Shown here: in pieces, positions 53,060-64,000 of the stretch
Numbering within the stretch: the stretch's first letter is position 1
Layout of the letters: every line of letters starts with the position of its first letter
Assembly: GCF_001042675.1 (NCBI RefSeq)
Contig: NZ_AP012333.1
Coordinates: 1,364,001 to 1,428,000 of the forward strand
DNA: 64,000 nucleotides
Reading direction: 5' to 3'
From: Parascardovia denticolens DSM 10105 = JCM 12538
Lineage (GTDB): Bacteria > Actinomycetota > Actinomycetes > Actinomycetales > Bifidobacteriaceae
The notes under the pieces: model-generated
Told to the model about the DNA's origin: nothing
The model's database searches: none
The model's input: the letters and a program-made list of their open reading frames with translations, nothing else
Program-made: the position numbers and the translations under genes

Positions 53060-53105
53060 CCTCACGCCTGAATCCTCGCCTCAAGCCCGAATCCTCACGT
53101 CTAAA
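53060..53105. repeat. GAATCCTC-like direct repeats downstream of pafA
   Basis: Units such as CCTGAATCCTCG and CCCGAATCCTCACG repeat next to the pafA stop. Same repeat type as at 26095-26190. Confidence 0.5.
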
Positions 53106-54660
53106 GCATGGGGAAAAGATCCGCGGCCGAATCGGCCTCCACCTGCCCGGCCCAGCCGTCCACCGTGGATCTGGCCGTTTCCAAGGCGGCTTCGTCTTGA
53201 TCCCTGAAGGGGTCAAGCAGGTCGACCGTCAGATCGGGGCAGGAAGACAAAGGGGACAGGATGGTGCAATGGGTCCAATCGCAGGACCAGGTCAGGTTAT
53301 GGTCCTGGGCCAGGCGGATGAGGGCCGCCCTCATCCGCGCCCGGGTGGACTGGGGGGCATGGTCGCGGAAGAAGGCGACCTGGTCGTCCTGGGCCTGTCT
53401 GCGGACCACTCCCCGGTCCAGCAAAGACCGGTAGACCAGGTCCTGGGCCAGGTCATGATAGGCCTGGTCCATCTGGATCAGGCGGAGGAGGCCGGGACGG
53501 GACCCTTGCGGGAAATCTTGGACCGGCCGACCGGCGACCTTCTCCAACAGCAGCCTTTTGGCGGCCCAATCGACCCAGGGAACCAGTTTGAGCCAGGCTT
53601 GGGAACCGGGATCCTCCTCCATGCTCAGGAAACGGTCGATGGTCTCTTTCCACAGGTCCAGCAGACGGCGATAGGCGGGCTCCACCCTTTCGATCTCCTC
53701 CTGATGCCTGTCCGCCATCGAGCAGATCCGGTCCCAGTAAAGGCCTTGGATCCGCGCGGCTGTCAGACGCCGCCCATCCTCCAGAAGAATCGGGGTCTGG
53801 CCAAGGCTGTGACTGATCTCCCTCATGGCCGCGGCAGGGTCCGCCAAGGCGAAGGACCGGCGGAGGTCGTCCAATCGACGGTCGCCTTTCCCCTCCCCCT
53901 CTTCGTCCTCTTCCCAAGCCTCCTCGATCAGGCATAGGACCAGGTGGGTGATGGCCGCCTTCATCCAGGTGGCGGTCTGGGAACGGTTGGATTCGCCGGC
54001 GATCACATGCAGACGCCGGTAGAGGCGGGAATCGGCGTGGGTCTCGTCCCTGGTGTTGATCATGGGCCGGGAATGGGTGGTGGCCGAGGAAACCGCCTCA
54101 TCCAGGAAATCGGCCCGGGCGGAAAGCTGGAAACCGTTCTGATCCATGTGACCGGTGCCGGTGAAGATCTGCCGGGTGACCAGGAAAGGGATCAGGGTTT
54201 CCTTCAAAAGCAGCAGGCCCAGGCCCCGATGGATCAGGTAGTTTTCATGACAGCCGAAGGCGTTGCCTTGGCTGTCCACATTGTTTTTGAAAAGATGGAA
54301 GATGGATTGAGGGCCGTAGGACCTTTCCACTTCGGCCTGCGCCTGATGGCAGAGATCTTTCATGAGGGATTCCCCGGCCAGGTCCGCCACGAGCAGGTCA
54401 CGGGGGCGGATGGCCTCGGCCGTGGCGTATTCGGGATGGGCCCCCACGTCCAGGTAGATCCGCGACCCATTGGGCAGGAAGGTGTTCGCCGCCCGGTACC
54501 GCCTTTGGACCGGCCGGAAGAGCAAGGCCGCCAGACTCTCCGCGCTGGGGTCCGGCCTTTCGCAAGCCGCATCCGCCACCTGCCCGGTCAGACCGGCCAG
54601 ACCGGTCAAGCTAAGCCCGTACTCGGTCTCCAGACCCATGATCCGACGGAAGAGGGGCAT
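53101..54660 (-). CDS. pafA: Pup-protein ligase PafA
   Basis: A 519-residue carboxylate-amine ligase that attaches the C-terminal Glu of Pup to substrate lysines. It shows the N-terminal MGLETEYGLSL block with the ATP-site Glu residues, and ARADFLDEAVSSATTHSRPM. It starts 3 nt after pup. At 519 residues it is longer than the ~450 of mycobacterial PafA, with an inserted acidic EEDEEGEGKGD stretch. Confidence 0.93.
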   Translation of the reverse strand: MPLFRRIMGLETEYGLSLTGLAGLTGQVADAACERPDPSAESLAALLFRPVQRRYRAANTFLPNGSRIYLDVGAHPEYATAEAIRPRDLLVADLAGESLMKDLCHQAQAEVERSYGPQSIFHLFKNNVDSQGNAFGCHENYLIHRGLGLLLLKETLIPFLVTRQIFTGTGHMDQNGFQLSARADFLDEAVSSATTHSRPMINTRDETHADSRLYRRLHVIAGESNRSQTATWMKAAITHLVLCLIEEAWEEDEEGEGKGDRRLDDLRRSFALADPAAAMREISHSLGQTPILLEDGRRLTAARIQGLYWDRICSMADRHQEEIERVEPAYRRLLDLWKETIDRFLSMEEDPGSQAWLKLVPWVDWAAKRLLLEKVAGRPVQDFPQGSRPGLLRLIQMDQAYHDLAQDLVYRSLLDRGVVRRQAQDDQVAFFRDHAPQSTRARMRAALIRLAQDHNLTWSCDWTHCTILSPLSSCPDLTVDLLDPFRDQDEAALETARSTVDGWAGQVEADSAADLFPML

Positions 54661-54663
54661 GGC

Positions 54664-54888
54664 TCACTGGCCGCCCTTCTGAACGAAACGGTTGACGTAT
54701 TCCTCCGCGTTCTCTTCGAGGACGGACTGGATGTCATCCAAAACGGCACCCATGGCCTGGTCCAACTGGTCCACCTCTTCCTTGGCCGCGCTATCCACCG
54801 GCTTGAGGTCTTCATCCTGGTCCTTCTTCGCGCTGGCTGAGGCCTCGGCTTGCGAAGCCTGCGAGACGATCCTTCGATGTTCGTTCAT
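54664..54888 (-). CDS. pup: Prokaryotic ubiquitin-like protein Pup
   Basis: A 74-residue, disordered-type acidic protein with a C-terminal helix region and the ending VQKGGQ. The terminal Gln must be deamidated to Glu by Dop before ligation. AGGAGG precedes the ATG. It is followed directly by pafA. Confidence 0.95.
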   Translation of the reverse strand: MNEHRRIVSQASQAEASASAKKDQDEDLKPVDSAAKEEVDQLDQAMGAVLDDIQSVLEENAEEYVNRFVQKGGQ

Positions 54889-54998
54889 CGTAACCTCCTA
54901 TTCACGGCCCACCTGGCCGGCTACTCGTCAGACCAACCAGCCGTCAGGCCGACCAATCACCCGTCGGACCTAGCCGCCGAATCTGGCCGTCGCTTCGG

Positions 54999-55850
54999 TC
55001 ACAAGGCCAGATAAGCCTGCAATTCATCGGTCAGCAGCCCGTTCGTAGCCAAAATGTTGTTCTTCTGATACCAATCGATTTCGGACCCATCCCACTGCCT
55101 CAGGCTGGCCCCGGACTCCCAGACCACGATGCTGCCGGCGGAGACGGCCGGGATGTCCCAATTGTGCAAAGAAGGCTCGAAATAGGCGTCATAGGTACCA
55201 TCGGCCACCTTGCACAGGTCCAGGGAGGTGGGCCCCATTCGCTTGATATCGGCCGGCAGCCCGGCCATGGAAGCGACGGTGGCGATGGCCTGTTTGGACT
55301 CCTCCGGGAAGTAGGACATGCCGAAGGAGACCACGGAACCGCGCAGGTGCTGGGTCATGGAAGGGACGACCGGCTCCCGCTTGAGGCCGACTTTGGAAGG
55401 GCGGATCCGGATGGCCCCCTGTTTGCGGGCGGCCAAATACGTGGTCTGCAAAGCCGGGGCGTGCACGATGCCCAGGATGGGGTAAGCCTGACCCGTTTCG
55501 TTGAGCTCGAACAAGGAAACGGTCAAAGTCCACTCAGCCAGGTTCCGGGTGAAATTGACGGCCCCATCCACCTTGCCCACGGACCAGTAGCGGCCTCCGG
55601 GATGGCGATCGGAACCGACCTCCTCCCAATAGCCGTCGAAGGGGGCGATGGACTCGATCTGGGCATGCAGGAACCTGAGGACGTTGTCGTCGACGGCGGA
55701 TGTGACCAAGGCGCTGTCGACCCCGCGGGAATCCACGTCCAAAGACTCCTTGGAATTCCAAGTACGAGGCGAAATCTGCACCTGCAAGGCATGCTCGCCC
55801 GCCTCCACGACCGCTTCATAGAGATTCTTGGCGATCTCACGCAGCTCCAT
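54999..55850 (-). CDS. Inositol-monophosphatase-like protein with a degenerate metal site
   Basis: The 283-residue protein has the IMPase fold markers GPTSLDLCKVADGTYDAYFE and the metal-site WDIPAVSAG near the C-terminus. The central motif, normally DP(I/L)DGTxNF, reads GKVDGAVNF, so the first metal-binding Asp is Gly. Activity is doubtful. It sits inside the Pup locus between dop and pup. ATG 55850 has AAAGGAG; a longer frame upstream is unsupported. Confidence 0.8.
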   Translation of the reverse strand: MELREIAKNLYEAVVEAGEHALQVQISPRTWNSKESLDVDSRGVDSALVTSAVDDNVLRFLHAQIESIAPFDGYWEEVGSDRHPGGRYWSVGKVDGAVNFTRNLAEWTLTVSLFELNETGQAYPILGIVHAPALQTTYLAARKQGAIRIRPSKVGLKREPVVPSMTQHLRGSVVSFGMSYFPEESKQAIATVASMAGLPADIKRMGPTSLDLCKVADGTYDAYFEPSLHNWDIPAVSAGSIVVWESGASLRQWDGSEIDWYQKNNILATNGLLTDELQAYLAL

Positions 55851-56040
55851 GGCCGCTCCTTTTGATACGTCGTCCGTACGAATGGCCCCTAGCGATGGTC
55901 CATACGAAAATGCTGATTGGAAGTCCACCTATATCCCACCGACAATGCAGGGAATGGACTATGGTCCCGTTTTCAGGTATCTTACCTATGCTCGGAGACG
56001 ATTCAGGGGTGAGAAACGCTGGGATGACCGCTGGGTGAAC

Positions 56041-57630
56041 TCAGCCGATCAAGGACCTGATCTTCTCCTCCAGGTCATGCCCGGTTCCGCCCTCAGGAAG
56101 GAGGGGGTCGGGGAGGCGCAGATGATGAGCCCGTCCTTGAGAATCGACCAAAGTGGCCGACTCCCACGAGAGGGAGGCCAGGTTATGCGGATGGTTTTTG
56201 ATCAGGATGGCGCGCAGGACCGCCCGGGTCCCGGCCGGGGGCTGATTGGAGGCTTGGATGACCTGCTCCGGCGTGGTCCAGGACCAGGCTTGCGGCATGG
56301 CCCGGAAACGCAAGGACTCCGGCCCCAACTGGGCCCACTGCAGGTCCGCGGCCCGCAGACGGCGATCCGACCAAGAGGCCTTCCACCGTCTGCGCAAGGA
56401 TTCCAACAAGCGCCATTTGGCGAACCATTCCAAGCGCCCGGCCGGTCCGTCCAAGGCGGAAGAGAGCCGCTGGCCGTCATCGGCCGTCCGTGCGACCAAG
56501 GCCAGGTCCCGCAAGACCTGCCCCCACAAATCCACCACCTGCCTGGTCTCCTGATCCGGCCACAGGGGCAAGCCGGTCGAATCCGCCCCATACAGGCGGG
56601 CGCCGCAACGACAGACCGCCGACCGCAACCTCACCTGCATCTGCCAAGCGGTCAAGTCCTCCCCCGATTTCAGGCGGATCGGCCGGCGTAGGGTGAGGTC
56701 CCGGGAGACCTGCCGCAAGGCGGCCACAGGGTCGGGCGGAATCAGGGAGTCAAGAAGGAGGCGGACCTGGTCCGGCTCTTCTTCCTCAAGGAGCCAAAAC
56801 AGGAGGCTGCTGGTCCCCAATTTGAGGACTTCCGGGCATTCCATGCAATTGGCGTCGCCGACGATGACATGGAAACGCCGGAAATCATCCCGGTCATGGG
56901 ACTCATCCCTGCTGTTGACGATGGGCCTGTCGAAAGTCGTCTGCAGGCCGACTTCCTCCTGACAGTAATCGGCCCGTTGGCTGATCTGGAAACCGGCTGG
57001 GGAGCCGGGACCGACCTCCTGGCCGAGACCCCAGCGGCCGGAACCGGTGAAGATCTGCCTGCTGACGGCATGGATGAGGAAGATCCGGGCCAGGTCTTCG
57101 AAGGGGACCGCCCTTTTGATCCGATAATTCTCATGCGCTCCCCAGGCCGCTCCCCTCCCGTCGCAATTATTGCGGTAAAGGATCAGGCCCGCCTCCTGGG
57201 CGGCCTCCTGCATGAGCCGGTCGCCCGCCTTGTCGTAAAGCAGGGCCTGAAAGGGATTGGTCGTCTCCGGGGCCGAATATTCGGGATGGGCGTGGTCCAA
57301 GTAGATGCGGCCTCCGTTGGGGGCCATGACGTTGGTGATGTTCAGCCGGGGGTCGTCGGTCAACAGGCCGGGATGGGCCCGGCTCCGGGGGACGTGAAAA
57401 CCGCGGGCGTCCTGGGTCGGATGCTCCGTGGCGTAATCCCAGGTGATGGGAAGGGAACCGGAACCACAACGGCCGGCGGCCTCCACCAGCCGTCGGGAGA
57501 GGAGGACTGGGTCCGGGACCGAATCCGGGGCTAAGGCCGCGGCCGGAGCCGAAGAGGAGGTTGAAGCGGAAGACATGGCAGGGACGATCCCGTACTCCGT
57601 CTCCGTCCCCATCACCCGGCGCACGGTCAC
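56041..57630 (-). CDS. dop: Pup deamidase/depupylase Dop
   Basis: A 529-residue PafA homologue starting TVRRVMGTETEYGI. It deamidates the C-terminal Gln of Pup and removes Pup from proteins. An insertion after the first strand (~20-80) corresponds to the Dop-loop region that distinguishes Dop from PafA. It starts at a GTG overlapping the stop of the ATPase gene (GTGA). Confidence 0.92.
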   Translation of the reverse strand: MTVRRVMGTETEYGIVPAMSSASTSSSAPAAALAPDSVPDPVLLSRRLVEAAGRCGSGSLPITWDYATEHPTQDARGFHVPRSRAHPGLLTDDPRLNITNVMAPNGGRIYLDHAHPEYSAPETTNPFQALLYDKAGDRLMQEAAQEAGLILYRNNCDGRGAAWGAHENYRIKRAVPFEDLARIFLIHAVSRQIFTGSGRWGLGQEVGPGSPAGFQISQRADYCQEEVGLQTTFDRPIVNSRDESHDRDDFRRFHVIVGDANCMECPEVLKLGTSSLLFWLLEEEEPDQVRLLLDSLIPPDPVAALRQVSRDLTLRRPIRLKSGEDLTAWQMQVRLRSAVCRCGARLYGADSTGLPLWPDQETRQVVDLWGQVLRDLALVARTADDGQRLSSALDGPAGRLEWFAKWRLLESLRRRWKASWSDRRLRAADLQWAQLGPESLRFRAMPQAWSWTTPEQVIQASNQPPAGTRAVLRAILIKNHPHNLASLSWESATLVDSQGRAHHLRLPDPLLPEGGTGHDLEEKIRSLIG

Positions 57631-59348
57631 CAGAGTTCCTCCTCCAGGTCGGCCACGCGGGCCCGGCGGTCAGACCCGGTGCGACGCCCATGGGGCGAAG
57701 GCTCGATCCGGCGGATATCGCCCACGGCGATCCCGTTGACCCGGGCCCACTGCTCCACTGTGGTCTGCGAGACGGAATCCACCGTCTCCACGTATTCCTC
57801 TTCCACCGCGTCCATGATCATCTCCCGGGAGATGGCCACGGTCGCCCGCTTGTCTTCCGAGGCCAGGGAAGCCTTGACCGCCTTGGTCTTCACCCGGTCC
57901 ACGATGTTGCGCAGGATGGCCCCGGAAATCAGGTCGCTGAAATAGACGGGGGAAGCGATGCCCTGGGTGTTGATGATGTCGCAGACATGCTTGGAATCGC
58001 TGCGGGCGTAGGCTTCGTCGGCCAGGAGGGCGATCATGTTCTCCGCCTTGTACCCCTTCTCCAGGGGCAGGTCGGCCGTCAGATAGCGGGAGAGGATGGA
58101 TTTGGCTTGGGGCAATTCAGGCCGGGGCACTTTGATCTTCACATCCAAGCGGCCGGGGCGTAGGACGGCCGGGTCGATGATGTCGATCCGGTTGGAGGTC
58201 CCGATGACGATGACGTTGTTCAGCTCGTCTATCCCGTCCAGCTCGGTCAGGAACTGGGGGACGATGGTGGTCTCCATATCGGAGGAGACCCCGGACCCGC
58301 GCGTGCGCAAGAGGGAATCCATCTCGTCGATGAAGACGATGACCGGCACGCCGGACGCCGCCCGTTCCCGGGCCCTATCGAAGACCTCCCGGATGATCCT
58401 TTCGGCCTCGCCCACGTATTTGCTCAGGAGCTCCGGTCCTTTGACCGAAAGGAAGACCCCTCGGGCCCCGGGAATGCCGGGGGCGCTCGGGTCCGTCTGC
58501 TCGTGCTCGTCGGCGAAGCCCTGGGCCAGGGAATGGGCGATGGCCTTGGCGATCATGGTCTTGCCGTTGCCGGGAGGTCCATAAAGGAGCACCCCCTGGG
58601 GCGGCTTCAACCCATACCGCTCGTAAAGCGCCCGGTGGAGGAAGGGAAGCTCGACCGCGTCTTTGATCTCCTCCACCTGCCTTTCCAGGCCGCCGATGTC
58701 CGCGAAGGAGACCCGGGGGACCTCTTCCAAGACCAGTTCCTGTCCATCGGTCGGCTCGACCGCTTCCAAGGCGAAACGTGATGTTGGATCCACCAAAACC
58801 GTGTCTTCGGCGTCCAGCTGGGTGTCCAATAAAGTATGGGCCCTCCTGACCACCATCTTGTTGCCGGCGTTGTCGGCCACGACCAGGCGGGACCCGGGCA
58901 GGGACTGCCTTACGGTGTAGATCTGCCCTTCTGTGGCCACCCCGGTCGCTTTGACCAAAAGATTCCTGTCATTGAGGTAGACCCTCTGCCCCGGCTCCAG
59001 ACGGGCCGCATCCAAGTCGGCGGACACGGGGACGACCAGGCGGCGGGAACCGACGGAAACCAGGACCCGGGCCTCTTGCCTGCGGCTGCGGGCGTCGAAA
59101 AGGGAGGACTCGATCTTCACGAAGACGGCCTCGGTCAACTCCCCTTCCTTCATGCCGGCCAAGGAGGCCTTCATCTTGGTGAGCTCGTCGCTGGCCCTCA
59201 TCAGGGCCTGGCTGAGAAGCTCGTTCTTTTTCTCCAGATCGTCCCGGGACTTCTCGGGGCTCGTTCCCCTGCGCCTTTCCTGGTCCGCTTCCCGCCCCAC
59301 TGTTTGATTCATCCCCTGGCTGCCTGCCCGGGCTTCCTCGTAATCCAT
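57627..59348 (-). CDS. arc: AAA+ ATPase ARC/Mpa
   Basis: A 573-residue ring ATPase with an N-terminal coiled coil that binds Pup (~25-75), an OB region (~80-200) and one AAA domain (Walker A GPPGNGKT, Walker B VIVFIDEMDSLL). The C-terminus ends EEELW, not the GQYL-type tail that docks mycobacterial Mpa on the 20S core, consistent with the absence of proteasome genes here. GGGAGG precedes ATG 59348. Confidence 0.92.
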   Translation of the reverse strand: MDYEEARAGSQGMNQTVGREADQERRRGTSPEKSRDDLEKKNELLSQALMRASDELTKMKASLAGMKEGELTEAVFVKIESSLFDARSRRQEARVLVSVGSRRLVVPVSADLDAARLEPGQRVYLNDRNLLVKATGVATEGQIYTVRQSLPGSRLVVADNAGNKMVVRRAHTLLDTQLDAEDTVLVDPTSRFALEAVEPTDGQELVLEEVPRVSFADIGGLERQVEEIKDAVELPFLHRALYERYGLKPPQGVLLYGPPGNGKTMIAKAIAHSLAQGFADEHEQTDPSAPGIPGARGVFLSVKGPELLSKYVGEAERIIREVFDRARERAASGVPVIVFIDEMDSLLRTRGSGVSSDMETTIVPQFLTELDGIDELNNVIVIGTSNRIDIIDPAVLRPGRLDVKIKVPRPELPQAKSILSRYLTADLPLEKGYKAENMIALLADEAYARSDSKHVCDIINTQGIASPVYFSDLISGAILRNIVDRVKTKAVKASLASEDKRATVAISREMIMDAVEEEYVETVDSVSQTTVEQWARVNGIAVGDIRRIEPSPHGRRTGSDRRARVADLEEELW

Positions 59349-60588: not shown

Positions 60589-61800
60589 TCACGCTTTTGT
60601 TGCAGCAGAAATTTCTCTAAGAAAAATTTCTGCTGCAACTTGCCCTCCAACTCGACTTTTACCACCGATAAATTCCACTAAATCACACCCAATTATCTTT
60701 CGATTATCACTGATGATATTAAGAAGACACTTCAATTGTCGAAGACTAATCCCATCAGGCAAGGGGGTTCCTGTATCTGGCATCACTGATGGATCAAGAA
60801 CATCTATATCAATGGATAGATACCACGGTATATCTTTCCTTAATTCTTTCAGACTATCTAGCGTCTGGCTCTCTTCAATATCTAAAGGGGAATAACTGAT
60901 GATTTTTCTACAATTCACCCTTGGCATCATAATCAGTTGTCGGACACCGATTTGGACTATACTCTCGACCTGATCCAGACCTGCAATGAGGCCCATTACA
61001 TTCCCGTGGTGAAGCTTCCTTTGCCAATCATTCTTAGATAATGGTTCAAGAAAATCACTATGTGCATCAAAATCAATTATACCAATTTGCTTAATACCAG
61101 ACTCTAAAATTCCCAATATCGCAGGATAAGTGATTGAATGATCACCACCCATTATTGCCGGAATGATACTCTTTTGAGATAACTGATGGGTCATTTCAGA
61201 TAGCCCTATCAAAACATCGCCATTTCGAGTCTGCACCTCACTGCCAAGGTCACCTAAATCCACCGCTTTTACTCCGCCTAGGACAATCTCCTTTGTAGCG
61301 GGATCCCACATTCCTTGATTTTTCTTATCATACTGAAAGATGCTACGAGATTCATGTCTTATGGATTCCGGAGCAAAGCGACTTCCACCCTGATACGAGA
61401 CCCCTGCATCATAGGCGACTCCCAACGCCGCAACGCTGATTTCCTCATCATATAGAGTGTCCGCGAGTGTCTGGAAAGGAAAATTAAACACACCTCGGTT
61501 GTATTTTCCCCAATCTCTATTATGCGGCTCCCACAGGTGTATCAGATTCTTTGAGAGGAAAAAGCCAATCAGCCTCTGCGCTCCTTGTCCGTCCAAAGAA
61601 TATTCCCGAATGACCGACTGCACATCTCTAGGAAAAGCAAAAGCATCAAGAATATGAAAGACACTCATCGGTAGATGGATATCTTCTCCTGTTTCGAAGT
61701 CACGCATAACGGCATATTCTGGACTGCCAGATTCTCCTGCGTAATACATTTGTCGGTTAACTACGTATAAGGCCATTCCATCATCAACTTTCACTATCAT
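60589..61800 (-). CDS. Ureohydrolase (arginase family) with N-terminal RRE-like domain
   Basis: The 403-residue protein has two parts. Residues ~1-100 look like a PqqD/RRE-type winged helix (DFETGEDIHLPMSVFHILDA ... PRDVQSVI ... FFLSKNLIHLW). Residues ~110-400 are an arginase fold with all metal motifs: GGDHS, DAHSD and SIDIDVLDPS, plus HHGNVMG and DTGTPLPDG. It is ATGA-coupled to the exporter gene. A free-arginine or agmatine ureohydrolase would not need the N-terminal domain. A peptide arginase making ornithine in a RiPP is the best inference. Codons are AT-rich (ATA, TTA, AGA common), unlike msrAB. Confidence 0.7.
   Translation of the reverse strand: MIVKVDDGMALYVVNRQMYYAGESGSPEYAVMRDFETGEDIHLPMSVFHILDAFAFPRDVQSVIREYSLDGQGAQRLIGFFLSKNLIHLWEPHNRDWGKYNRGVFNFPFQTLADTLYDEEISVAALGVAYDAGVSYQGGSRFAPESIRHESRSIFQYDKKNQGMWDPATKEIVLGGVKAVDLGDLGSEVQTRNGDVLIGLSEMTHQLSQKSIIPAIMGGDHSITYPAILGILESGIKQIGIIDFDAHSDFLEPLSKNDWQRKLHHGNVMGLIAGLDQVESIVQIGVRQLIMMPRVNCRKIISYSPLDIEESQTLDSLKELRKDIPWYLSIDIDVLDPSVMPDTGTPLPDGISLRQLKCLLNIISDNRKIIGCDLVEFIGGKSRVGGQVAAEIFLREISAATKA
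60599..60639. repeat. Perfect 16-bp inverted repeat over the arginase-like gene's 3' end
   Basis: Arms GTTGCAGCAGAAATTT (60599-60614) and its exact complement (60624-60639) enclose a 9-nt loop. The repeat codes for the last residues of the arginase-like protein. No T-run follows on either strand. Confidence 0.8.
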
Positions 61801-63500
61801 TCCTGGATGTCAGGAAAAATTGAATCCAACCGTAACACTTCATCGGCAGCATCAATCGTGTACTGTCTATGCGCAATGGAGAGAATAGTCCTCCCCGGAA
61901 GCTCTTCCTCCACAAGTTTCTGCAAATCGGCACCTTCCTTTTTCGGAAAGATAGCAAACGCCTCATCCATGATATACAGTCGTGCTTTTTGCAGAAGAAG
62001 CCGAGCAAGAGCCAGCTTTTGAACCGTTGCCGGGGAGATTTCGCAGCAATCCATAGGATTGTCGATTCCTCCGATCAGACTTTGCAAACCGAGCAGATTC
62101 AGGGCTCTGTCGATTTCGTCATCTGACCTCTTGGGGCACCCGAGCGTGAGATAAAACCGATAGCTGTCATGAAAAGGCGCATTGACCTGTTCCAAGTAGG
62201 TGATCTCTTGAGGCTTTGGCGCAGTAAGATGTCCGCTGAGCCAAACATTTCCCGCCATTTCATCTTCTTCATTTATAAGCCCGCTGATTATCAGGGCAAG
62301 GCTCGTCTTGCCCGATCCGGAAAGGCCTACGAGGGCGGTATGACTGTTTCTCTTCACCTGCGCCGATAGTCCATCAATCACGTTTTTCCCGAACCTATAG
62401 CGAAACTTCAGTCTCTCCAAACAAATTGAATGAAGGTCCATCGGGTTGCTTTCGCTCCGCTGATATTTTCCCGTTCGTTCATTCCGGTCCTTCCTAGAGC
62501 TTGGAGAATTCCCATTCCCTTGTATACCGAAGATCCGACGCAAGGCGGCCCAAGAAAGTTGGAATTGATCCATCCAATACACCAGATCATCCATAGGATT
62601 AATGATCAGTTGAGCGTTCATCGCGATCGCTACGACCGTACCGATCCTTATCTGCCCGTTGATAGCCATCAACCCGCCAAAAAACGTCACAAGTACGATA
62701 GGCATATAGTATCCCACTTGCACCAAAGGAAACCAGAGATTCTGCAATTGAAGCGTGCGCTCTTCTGTTTTCGCGACATTTTTTGCCGCGCTTCCCAATC
62801 TCTGGAGGATGGCTCCCTCCTCATGGAAAATCTGGATTGATTCACGGGAATCGACTGCATCCGCTATCAAATCGTCAAACTCCCCATGCGCTTCGAGCTC
62901 TCCTATATACGCTTTTTCAGAATGAAATACATACCAATTCGTCCCGAAAAAGATAATTGGCCAGCAGGATAAAAGAATCAGCCCTAGTCGCCAATCAAGA
63001 ACAATCGAGCTCGCCGATATGAAAATCAGATAGAAGATTGCGACCAATACCTCAGGAATACCTATTCTTACGATATCCGCAACAGCGTCCACATCATTGG
63101 TAATGAGGGATAGAACATCGCCACGCTTTATCCGCTCCAAAACGGTAAGCGGAACGTTGAAAGTCTGCTCCACGACATGAGCCCTCAAATCGGAGAAGAC
63201 ATTCTCCCCAAAAATCCATGACTCACGTTGAGCCACCCATGTCGTGAGGAAACGGAAGAAGAGCGCGCCTATAATCATGCCCACTACAACGCCGATCCGT
63301 TGGAGAGAACCGGATGAATTCAAAAGGTCAATAAGCCATCCGAAAAGAATTGAAATGCTGACGGCAAATAACGATGCGATCAAATACGAACAGAGCAGAC
63401 CCCAAAAATATCTACGGTATTTGTGCGCAATCCGGAAGAATTCTCTTCGCGTTAGCCTCGGAGACGCGACAAATGCTTGTCTCATCTCATTCATTTTCAC
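61797..63500 (-). CDS. ABC exporter half-transporter with degenerate signature motif
   Basis: A 567-residue type IV exporter subunit with six membrane helices (~residues 25-310), then a nucleotide-binding domain. Walker A is GLSGSGKTS and Walker B YIMDEAF keeps the catalytic Glu; the switch His is in SIAHRQ. The ABC signature, normally LSGGQ, reads ISPATVQ. The start at GTG 63500 overlaps the preceding ABC gene; ATG 63494 is an alternative. It is coupled to the arginase-like gene. Export of a modified peptide is inferred. Confidence 0.82.
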   Translation of the reverse strand: MKMNEMRQAFVASPRLTRREFFRIAHKYRRYFWGLLCSYLIASLFAVSISILFGWLIDLLNSSGSLQRIGVVVGMIIGALFFRFLTTWVAQRESWIFGENVFSDLRAHVVEQTFNVPLTVLERIKRGDVLSLITNDVDAVADIVRIGIPEVLVAIFYLIFISASSIVLDWRLGLILLSCWPIIFFGTNWYVFHSEKAYIGELEAHGEFDDLIADAVDSRESIQIFHEEGAILQRLGSAAKNVAKTEERTLQLQNLWFPLVQVGYYMPIVLVTFFGGLMAINGQIRIGTVVAIAMNAQLIINPMDDLVYWMDQFQLSWAALRRIFGIQGNGNSPSSRKDRNERTGKYQRSESNPMDLHSICLERLKFRYRFGKNVIDGLSAQVKRNSHTALVGLSGSGKTSLALIISGLINEEDEMAGNVWLSGHLTAPKPQEITYLEQVNAPFHDSYRFYLTLGCPKRSDDEIDRALNLLGLQSLIGGIDNPMDCCEISPATVQKLALARLLLQKARLYIMDEAFAIFPKKEGADLQKLVEEELPGRTILSIAHRQYTIDAADEVLRLDSIFPDIQE

Positions 63501-64000
63501 GCATTCCCTTCATATCGGATAGGGGAGGATTTTCGGGCAAAATTTCCTTCAACTCAAACACACCATCTTTCAGCACAACTTGACTTGTATCCCAAGTATC
63601 GGATAAATCCCAGCCCTCTTCCACGATAATCGTGGTGGCAAGATTAGCCCGGAACAAGATGATCCTTTCGACCATCTCTCTGGCAGTAGCGATATCCAAG
63701 GCTTGCGTCGGGTCAAGGAGTACAAGGGATTGGGGCCGATTTATCAATGCCTTCGCGATAACGAGACGTTGGCGCTGCCCTTCGGAAAGGCTATTCCCAT
63801 TCCGAGTGATTTTAAGATTCACATCACCTGTTTCGCCGAATAATTCGTCAAGGCAGGCGGCTTTCAGAGCATGAAGCTGCTCTTGCTCCGTATGATTCCG
63901 TCCACAAAGTATCTGAGAGACCGAGCCAGCAACAAAGCTCATCCGAGGATCGATGATAAGTGGATCAACTTCGTCTTTTAGAACCTTGAGGGAGGAAGCA
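63487..64000 (-). CDS. ABC exporter half-transporter, C-terminal part (runs off the window)
   Basis: The frame stays open to base 64000, so only the last ~170 residues, the end of a nucleotide-binding domain, are seen. The Q-loop region FVAGSVSQILCG and an intact signature NSLSEGQRQRL are present. Walker B reads LVLLDPTQALD, with Pro in place of the catalytic Glu. It is the complementary partner of the downstream half-transporter: together they make one canonical and one degenerate ATP site. The 5' part must lie right of the window. Confidence 0.8.
   Translation of the reverse strand, partial: ASSLKVLKDEVDPLIIDPRMSFVAGSVSQILCGRNHTEQEQLHALKAACLDELFGETGDVNLKITRNGNSLSEGQRQRLVIAKALINRPQSLVLLDPTQALDIATAREMVERIILFRANLATTIIVEEGWDLSDTWDTSQVVLKDGVFELKEILPENPPLSDMKGMRENE

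Follow-up and report, generated by a model that had tools for sequence, protein, structure and literature searches.

A candidate ribosomal-peptide operon with a PqqD-like domain fused to a ureohydrolase and two pyridoxal phosphate enzymes in Parascardovia denticolens

We analysed a 64,000-nucleotide stretch of the one-contig, 1.89 Mb genome of Parascardovia denticolens DSM 10105 = JCM 12538 (G000:C1:1364001-1428000; hereafter the window), the end of which appears to lie inside a horizontally acquired cluster for a modified ribosomal peptide. Followed for 14 kb past the window in locus L003 (G000:C1:1423000-1442000; window number = L003 number + 58999), the cluster is a minus-strand operon running from a 66-aa open reading frame (ORF) through a decarboxylase homologue, a gamma-type pyridoxal 5'-phosphate (PLP) enzyme and two ATP-binding cassette (ABC) half-transporters to a ureohydrolase headed by a domain like the recognition elements (RREs) of ribosomally synthesised and post-translationally modified peptide (RiPP) systems. 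The precursor family, the operon and the enzyme families can be read from sequence, and the operon is very probably a RiPP operon, in which the ureohydrolase is likely to convert peptide arginine to ornithine.

Two relatives allow the operon to be compared. Scardovia wiggsiae F0424 carries the same gene order with an unbroken decarboxylase, and the Mammaliicoccus sciuri plasmid NZ_CP077961.1 carries a rearranged cluster of a 27-aa ORF, decarboxylase A, arginase, decarboxylase B and gamma-type PLP enzyme; it also has an ABC ATPase plus permease, which are of a different type, and a GNAT acetyltransferase. Pairwise identity is 28-38% for the arginases and 26-33% for the gamma-type enzymes.

The original prediction, which was confined to the window, held that the precursor lay outside it, and extension past base 64000 did show that this operon begins with a short ORF. 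This ORF (L003:8809-9009, or 67808-68008 in window numbering, minus strand) stands 3.8 kb outside the window behind an AGGAG ribosome site and encodes 66 residues, MAVSAHSVKKNSTHDVLDSEFFSLVDMLGLGSAEDTMDSGIVVEKTRPVLSMEFDVMGGSRPRYQI, the last of them being ...FDVMGGSRPRYQI. Its counterparts are a 65-aa ORF at the head of the Scardovia operon, with the C-terminus ...DFAAMGGSRPRRMGDFGD, and the 27-aa ORF of the Mammaliicoccus plasmid, MTENIRNATPSISLDLDLMGGSRPRLK. Each of the three has a good Shine-Dalgarno ribosome-binding site ahead of it and contains MGGSRPR, and when all ORFs of 20-120 aa are compared across the loci (213, 220 and 136 ORFs), each run of at least five residues common to all three traces to this motif. 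Every one of the six codons that follow Met varies among the three operons, and always synonymously, which points to selection on the peptide. An Arg-rich core had also been anticipated; two Arg are indeed conserved, in S-R-P-R, but the core is not broadly Arg-rich. The small ORF accompanies the arginase in all three operons, and the pair of ABC halves recurs in Scardovia.

The last gene of the operon (minus-strand ORF 60589-61800) encodes a 403-aa protein in which some 110 residues precede the catalytic domain (aa 117-403; 60589-61452). By sequence this enzyme is a ureohydrolase of Pfam family Arginase, PF00491 (aa 123-377, E 7e-47, 160.6 bits against a gathering cut-off of 22). The metal motifs GGDHS, DAHSD and SIDIDVLDPS are all present, and the six positions that we take from the motif to be metal ligands are invariant across the three cluster arginases. 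A complete binuclear metal site is indicated by the Pfam match, the ligands and an AlphaFold2 (AF2) model, which resembles agmatinase/arginase structures (Z about 30). The protein has no second match to itself in the window genome at E ≤ 0.001. A peptide arginase such as OspR had been proposed, and a ureohydrolase does share the operon with a peptide precursor, but its family is PF00491, as in KgrD, and not the OspR family PF12640, for which hmmscan gave no match at E ≤ 1 (only PF00491 and a weak DM10 match were returned). Since PF00491 includes agmatinases and arginases, and the best NCBIfam models are agmatinases, one could take the genes for nothing more than an exporter-bearing operon for the catabolism of arginine/agmatine, in which the small ORF is incidental. 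That explanation is nearly refuted: the scores fall far under the agmatinase/arginase cut-offs (123 against 302, 122.5 against 174.3 and 69 against 227.6 bits), the protein bears an N-terminal RRE-like domain, and MGGSRPR is kept by synonymous change in three operons. A RiPP operon is the reading that we follow from here.

The N-terminal domain (aa 1-95; 61516-61800, minus strand), which the original prediction had called RRE-like, is upheld as such by comparison with PqqD and, at modest confidence, by its predicted winged-helix topology. In hhalign, a profile of the three N-domains aligned with 21 PqqD-like sequences over 55 columns (score 26.76, probability 65, E 6e-5). None of 200 column shuffles did as well (best 15.92), a mild control because shuffling destroys the secondary-structure pattern, and the best of 93 windows from other operon proteins scored 12.72. 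The AF2 topology is E-E-E-E-H-H-H-E, with strands at residues 12-15, 18-23, 29-34 and 40-44, helices at 45-52, 60-66 and 71-83, and a final strand at 87-90, a layout that we take to be that of PqqD-type domains. Two alignment sequences cover this domain, its blocks have a predicted local distance difference test score (pLDDT) of 58-77 (residues 11-90), and the five arginase models have a mean pLDDT of 55.8 to 72.6. A sequence search of PDB chains with the N-domain gave nothing useful and the PqqD model had no match in the window genome at E ≤ 0.001. For the arginase model, neither Foldseek nor VIA-align listed any RRE chains, which is uninformative because the catalytic domain fills both lists. 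On profile and model together, an RRE-like identity is well supported, the evidence being good but not final.

Upstream of the exporter lie the two PLP enzymes. The gamma-type enzyme (468 aa; L003:6167-7573, or 65166-66572, minus strand) is cystathionine gamma-synthase/lyase-like, without a Pfam match, and the presumed PLP Lys and Asp are invariant in four of four gamma-type sequences. A model of the Scardovia protein (pLDDT 84.7) gave 803 Foldseek matches at E ≤ 0.001. The best 50 of these, with E from 4e-13 and an identity of about 13-18%, were cystathionine gamma-lyases/synthases or methionine gamma-lyases, 47 of them going by their titles. A sequence profile against the PDB found the same families weakly (E 0.002), and Pfam PF01053 was reached by the Enterococcus faecalis gamma-type protein only, just under cut-off (26.5 against 27). 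As tested, the predicted fold of the Scardovia enzyme is that of the transsulfuration gamma family. The second enzyme is a fold-III PLP decarboxylase homologue (L003:7573-8798, or 66572-67797, minus strand) that occupies two overlapping frames, with a frameshift near L003:8410-8470. Its profile matches are diaminopimelate decarboxylases (2e-27) and carboxynorspermidine decarboxylase (1e-21); PF02784 is above cut-off in the Scardovia, Mammaliicoccus A and E. faecalis proteins and in the N-terminal piece from the window genome, and the PLP Lys is present. At E ≤ 0.001 the lysA model matches nothing else in the window genome.

From these families we infer the substrates, the order of steps, the product and the removal of the leader. 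The RRE-like domain fused to the arginase would recognise the leader of the 66-aa precursor, and the arginase would hydrolyse one or both Arg of the SRPR core to ornithine. The cystathionine-gamma-synthase-like enzyme would add a 3-amino-3-carboxypropyl group, from S-adenosylmethionine (SAM) or activated homoserine, to the ornithine amine, and the LysA/carboxynorspermidine-decarboxylase-like enzyme would remove the carboxylate to give N-delta-(3-aminopropyl)ornithine, so that the ribosomal peptide would bear a spermidine/hypusine-like side chain. A host peptidase would remove the leader, after which a heterodimeric ABC exporter would secrete the product. This series, from Arg through ornithine and aminocarboxypropyl to aminopropyl, is suggested because ornithine is the obvious acceptor amine in the arginase operons and because PLP enzymes with such chemistry have precedents. 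The central guess of the original prediction, an Arg-to-ornithine pathway, is well supported by the precursor and the RRE-like domain, but ornithine is probably not the end point, since in both the window genome and Scardovia the genes of two PLP enzymes separate the precursor from the exporter. We give the whole pathway with its final product about an even chance, and place aminopropylation by the PLP pair at or slightly under that.

Among the precedents, LolD of loline alkaloid biosynthesis is reportedly an ornithine decarboxylase (ODC)-like enzyme. For LolC, a gamma-substitution that joins proline with homoserine has been proposed (PMC4274035, PMC10367076); LolC/LolD differ from the present pair in being fungal and in using free proline. 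More generally, PLP enzymes of the gamma type convert a gamma-functionalised amino acid to a vinylglycine intermediate, whose gamma carbon is then attacked by a nucleophile (PMC10367076). Muraymycin biosynthesis employs two PLP enzymes in this way: Mur24 uses SAM to place an aminocarboxypropyl group on an amine (PMC10491745), and Mur23 decarboxylates the Mur24 product (PMC9814697). The shared logic is PLP gamma-replacement onto an amine followed by decarboxylation to aminopropyl, whereas the Mur24/Mur23 substrate is a nucleoside and Mur24 is like 1-aminocyclopropane-1-carboxylate (ACC) synthase, not of cystathionine gamma-type. Microcin C maturation by MccB-MccD-MccE, where MccD/MccE give the aminopropyl group (PMC12250964, PMC10491745), and other RiPPs of ThiF-like adenylyltransferases (TLAT) are alike in aminocarboxypropyl transfer followed by PLP decarboxylation and in an RRE before the catalytic domain (PMC12250964). 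They differ in that the transfer enzyme presumed here is PLP-dependent and not of the MccD methyltransferase type, and in that the proposed acceptor is ornithine and not phosphate; by Pfam, the window operon genes have no ThiF domain.

Several observations weigh against the proposed series, the first of them against its last step. The conserved C-terminal Cys of LysA/ODC-type decarboxylases is catalytic. Leu replaces the diaminopimelate-decarboxylase Cys in the window-genome, Scardovia and Mammaliicoccus A proteins (three of three alignments shown), which weakens the case for a final decarboxylation and may reflect a changed reaction, such as one that yields an aldehyde; the Mammaliicoccus B decarboxylase keeps the usual Cys, and in E. 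faecalis it is one residue off. Owing to the frameshifted decarboxylase gene, the pathway may be dead or mis-sequenced in the window genome: either the cluster is decaying there or the frameshift is a sequencing error. Mur24, being ACC-synthase-like, is an analogue and not a homologue. For the N-domain, Pfam gives no PqqD match at E ≤ 1. The PLP pair need not act on ornithine, since two loci with a ThiF adenylyltransferase, described below, have the pair without an arginase match. In 22 of 23 genome-scan loci with the gamma-type enzyme, tblastn at 1e-5 finds no such decarboxylase (loci 5-21 kb). Both the product and the activity of the pathway are predictions.

The loss of the decarboxylase Cys in the same three proteins also speaks for a rival reading, in which peptide ornithine is made and the PLP enzymes then do other chemistry: the delta-amine aldimine would be oxidised, cyclised or eliminated, or decarboxylation-transamination would give a cyclising aldehyde. 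This is helped by GntC, a gamma-substitution PLP enzyme that cyclises an arginine derivative (PMC10367076). We consider it unlikely, though not to be neglected, as the fold-I model groups with cystathionine gamma-type enzymes and the pair fits the known two-step logic of aminopropylation.

The PLP pair occurs with a ThiF adenylyltransferase on an Enterococcus faecalis plasmid (LR962333.1; L036:4303-12544) and a Lactococcus lactis plasmid (NZ_CP053672.2; L037:6358-13180). Both plasmids are typed mobilizable, and the clusters are unannotated or mostly hypothetical. ThiF was recognised by a domain match in the former (E 1e-31) and by annotation in the latter. The clusters contain ORFs of 25 and 26 aa ending in -RT (MNEEGKTTEMTFEDLFVEIISVERT; MEENDIITENIDFEEIFSDLEMRVRT), an acetyltransferase gene close by and a transporter that by eye is like those of the major facilitator superfamily; the Lactococcus decarboxylase and transporter each fall in two ORFs. 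In hhalign the N-domain and the ThiF N-termini aligned with a probability of 0.5, and those N-termini and PqqD with 0.3 (alignments of 3 and 2 sequences); as the signal is absent, no relation is claimed. The E. faecalis locus also encodes a 538-aa protein, without a Pfam match, that by eye is like an M3/PepF-type peptidase, and the Lactococcus cluster is followed by an AAC(3)-family acetyltransferase.

Both PLP genes stand together in all five RiPP-like loci, three with arginase and two with ThiF, which were found through arginase or gamma-type enzyme queries. An unrooted tree of 22 gamma-type proteins contains a branch (96/92) with all five RiPP-like ones on the same side, subject to a long-branch warning. 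The ThiF enzyme EnfB, which can amidate its own peptide with free amines (PMC12250964), lends something to a reading in which the PLP enzymes and/or the arginase act on free amino acids and a small polyamine-like amine is joined to the peptide later, as does the fact that the nearest enzymes to the catalytic domains work on agmatine and diaminopimelate in free form. Such a route is improbable: the arginase carries the RRE-like domain, and the window operon genes hold no ligase domain by Pfam, though the 468-aa protein has no Pfam match of any kind. Returning to modification on the peptide, we put forward, tentatively and at somewhat less than an even chance, a new RiPP class in which an RRE-guided arginase and the PLP pair rebuild core Arg into hypusine-like polyamine side chains of N-aminopropyl-ornithine, and in which the pair is a portable, general aminopropylation module reused in the ThiF clusters. 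According to a 2025 review, ThiF genes of Enterococcus and Streptococcus have decarboxylases and PLP-dependent enzymes close by (PMC12250964), so for the ThiF version there is at least a hint in the literature.

Among 189 genomes sampled from the family, arginase matches were found in four, and these were full-length and in a cluster in two, the window genome (G000) and Scardovia wiggsiae F0424 (G187). The label bifidobacterial holds at family level only, one genome of the same genus being Scardovia wiggsiae F0424. Ordinary ureohydrolases in G017 and G048 (26% identity) were set aside, with no PLP genes nearby by tblastn and one weak ABC match near G048. Of 455 plasmid records matching the arginase protein, four did so over 80% of its length; of the two sites inspected, one was the Mammaliicoccus cluster and the other a speB of Priestia next to speE. 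Plasmid tblastn gave three records with each gamma-type query and three with the Scardovia decarboxylase, one of the latter being a Leptospira diaminopimelate decarboxylase. In wider sampling, viral contigs gave no match with the gamma-type alignment and phages gave none either; one of 396 genomes of the order matched at 1e-8, the window genome, Scardovia not being reported in that draw, and two of 396 of the phylum matched at 1e-6, the window genome and a partial match in G657. The scan of the genome collection used two strict peptide patterns, so relatives may have been missed; its 22 decarboxylase-free loci (L014-L035) come mostly from Reyranella and Rhodospirillales, and one (L014) has a distant ureohydrolase 7 kb from the gamma-type gene. 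The recurrence of the gamma-type family in Reyranella and other Rhodospirillales, there without a decarboxylase partner, is an observation in its own right.

The enteropeptin system of Enterococcus cecorum is said to have a thiomorpholine-forming radical SAM enzyme and an N-methyltransferase beside its arginase. KgrD of this system is likewise a PF00491 ureohydrolase acting on Arg of a ribosomal peptide (PMC12703449), but enteropeptin needs a prior thiomorpholine and an Fe-S-dependent methyltransferase, families that Pfam does not find in the window operon genes, and the window operon, unlike enteropeptin, has two PLP enzymes and the RRE-like fusion. OspR-type peptide arginases (landornamide, selidamides) share the proposed Arg-to-ornithine conversion in RiPP cores and differ in family (PF12640). 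KgrD is the one PF00491 peptide arginase met in the literature extracts covered, and none in them has a fused recognition domain or an MGGSRPR-type precursor. In a literature search mainly of titles and abstracts, with few subscription papers, no published description of the operon or of an MGGSRP peptide was recognised; to that extent, a RiPP operon that combines a PF00491 peptide arginase fused to an RRE with a recurrent module of two PLP enzymes was not found in print. If the PLP steps are true, the product would be, to our knowledge, the first RiPP to carry a polyamine; the system would provide enzymes for placing spermidine-like side chains on chosen arginines and suggest what the decarboxylase and PLP-enzyme genes do in the orphan ThiF clusters that lactic acid bacteria carry. 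The alignment of precursors from three operons makes the idea directly testable.

The exporter consists of two subunits, each with ABC_membrane and ABC_tran domains (Pfam). Half-transporter 2 (61797-63500, minus strand) has Walker A and lacks the canonical signature. Half-transporter 1 (63487-64000, minus strand, cut by the window end; whole gene L003:4488-6152, ending at 65151 in window numbering) has an LSEGQ signature and no Walker A pattern. The same holds for both exporter pairs (L003:2798-6152 and Scardovia L010:8504-11919), half 1 having the signature without a Walker A pattern and half 2 having Walker A and B without the canonical signature, and with these complementary losses only one composite ATP site is expected. 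The start of the arginase gene shares 4 bp with the stop of half-transporter 2, whose own start shares 14 bp with the stop of half-transporter 1. An arginase fold, overlapping exporter genes and an AT-rich operon had all been noted beforehand, and the motifs, these overlaps and the G+C content (0.40-0.51 in 500-base blocks, against 0.50-0.67 in the remaining blocks of the 19-kb stretch) agree with that description. The Scardovia operon is also G+C-poor (0.37-0.47 within 0.53-0.59) and sits elsewhere in its genome, where msrAB is separated from the RNase H gene by about 3.1 kb that does not contain the operon. Low G+C in both genomes and the different genomic place point to acquisition by horizontal transfer. 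In G186 msrAB was not found in the insertion-site check, hence no empty-site reading is available there.

Beyond the arginase lies a convergent gene that we take to be msrAB. Between the two, over the last arginase codons, is a near-perfect self-complementary inverted repeat (60599-60639, no strand assigned), possibly a bidirectional terminator, which the terminator scan did not call. At the other end, upstream of the precursor ORF, there is a promoter-like site with an extended -10-like element (L003:9040-9068, minus strand); one was found and one is expected by chance. On the opposite strand beyond the operon stands an RNase H-domain gene (L003:9224-10261) with a long C-terminal extension, followed on that strand by what is presumably rpiA; relatives of the RNase H-domain protein occur in each of the two further genomes of the genus. 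Within the window, the genes at 53101-59348 presumably form a pupylation/proteasome-accessory set, with what we take to be Dop/PafA-like proteins at 53101-54660 and 56041-57630, a Pup-like small protein ending in GGQ at 54664-54888 and an ARC-like ATPase at 57627-59348.

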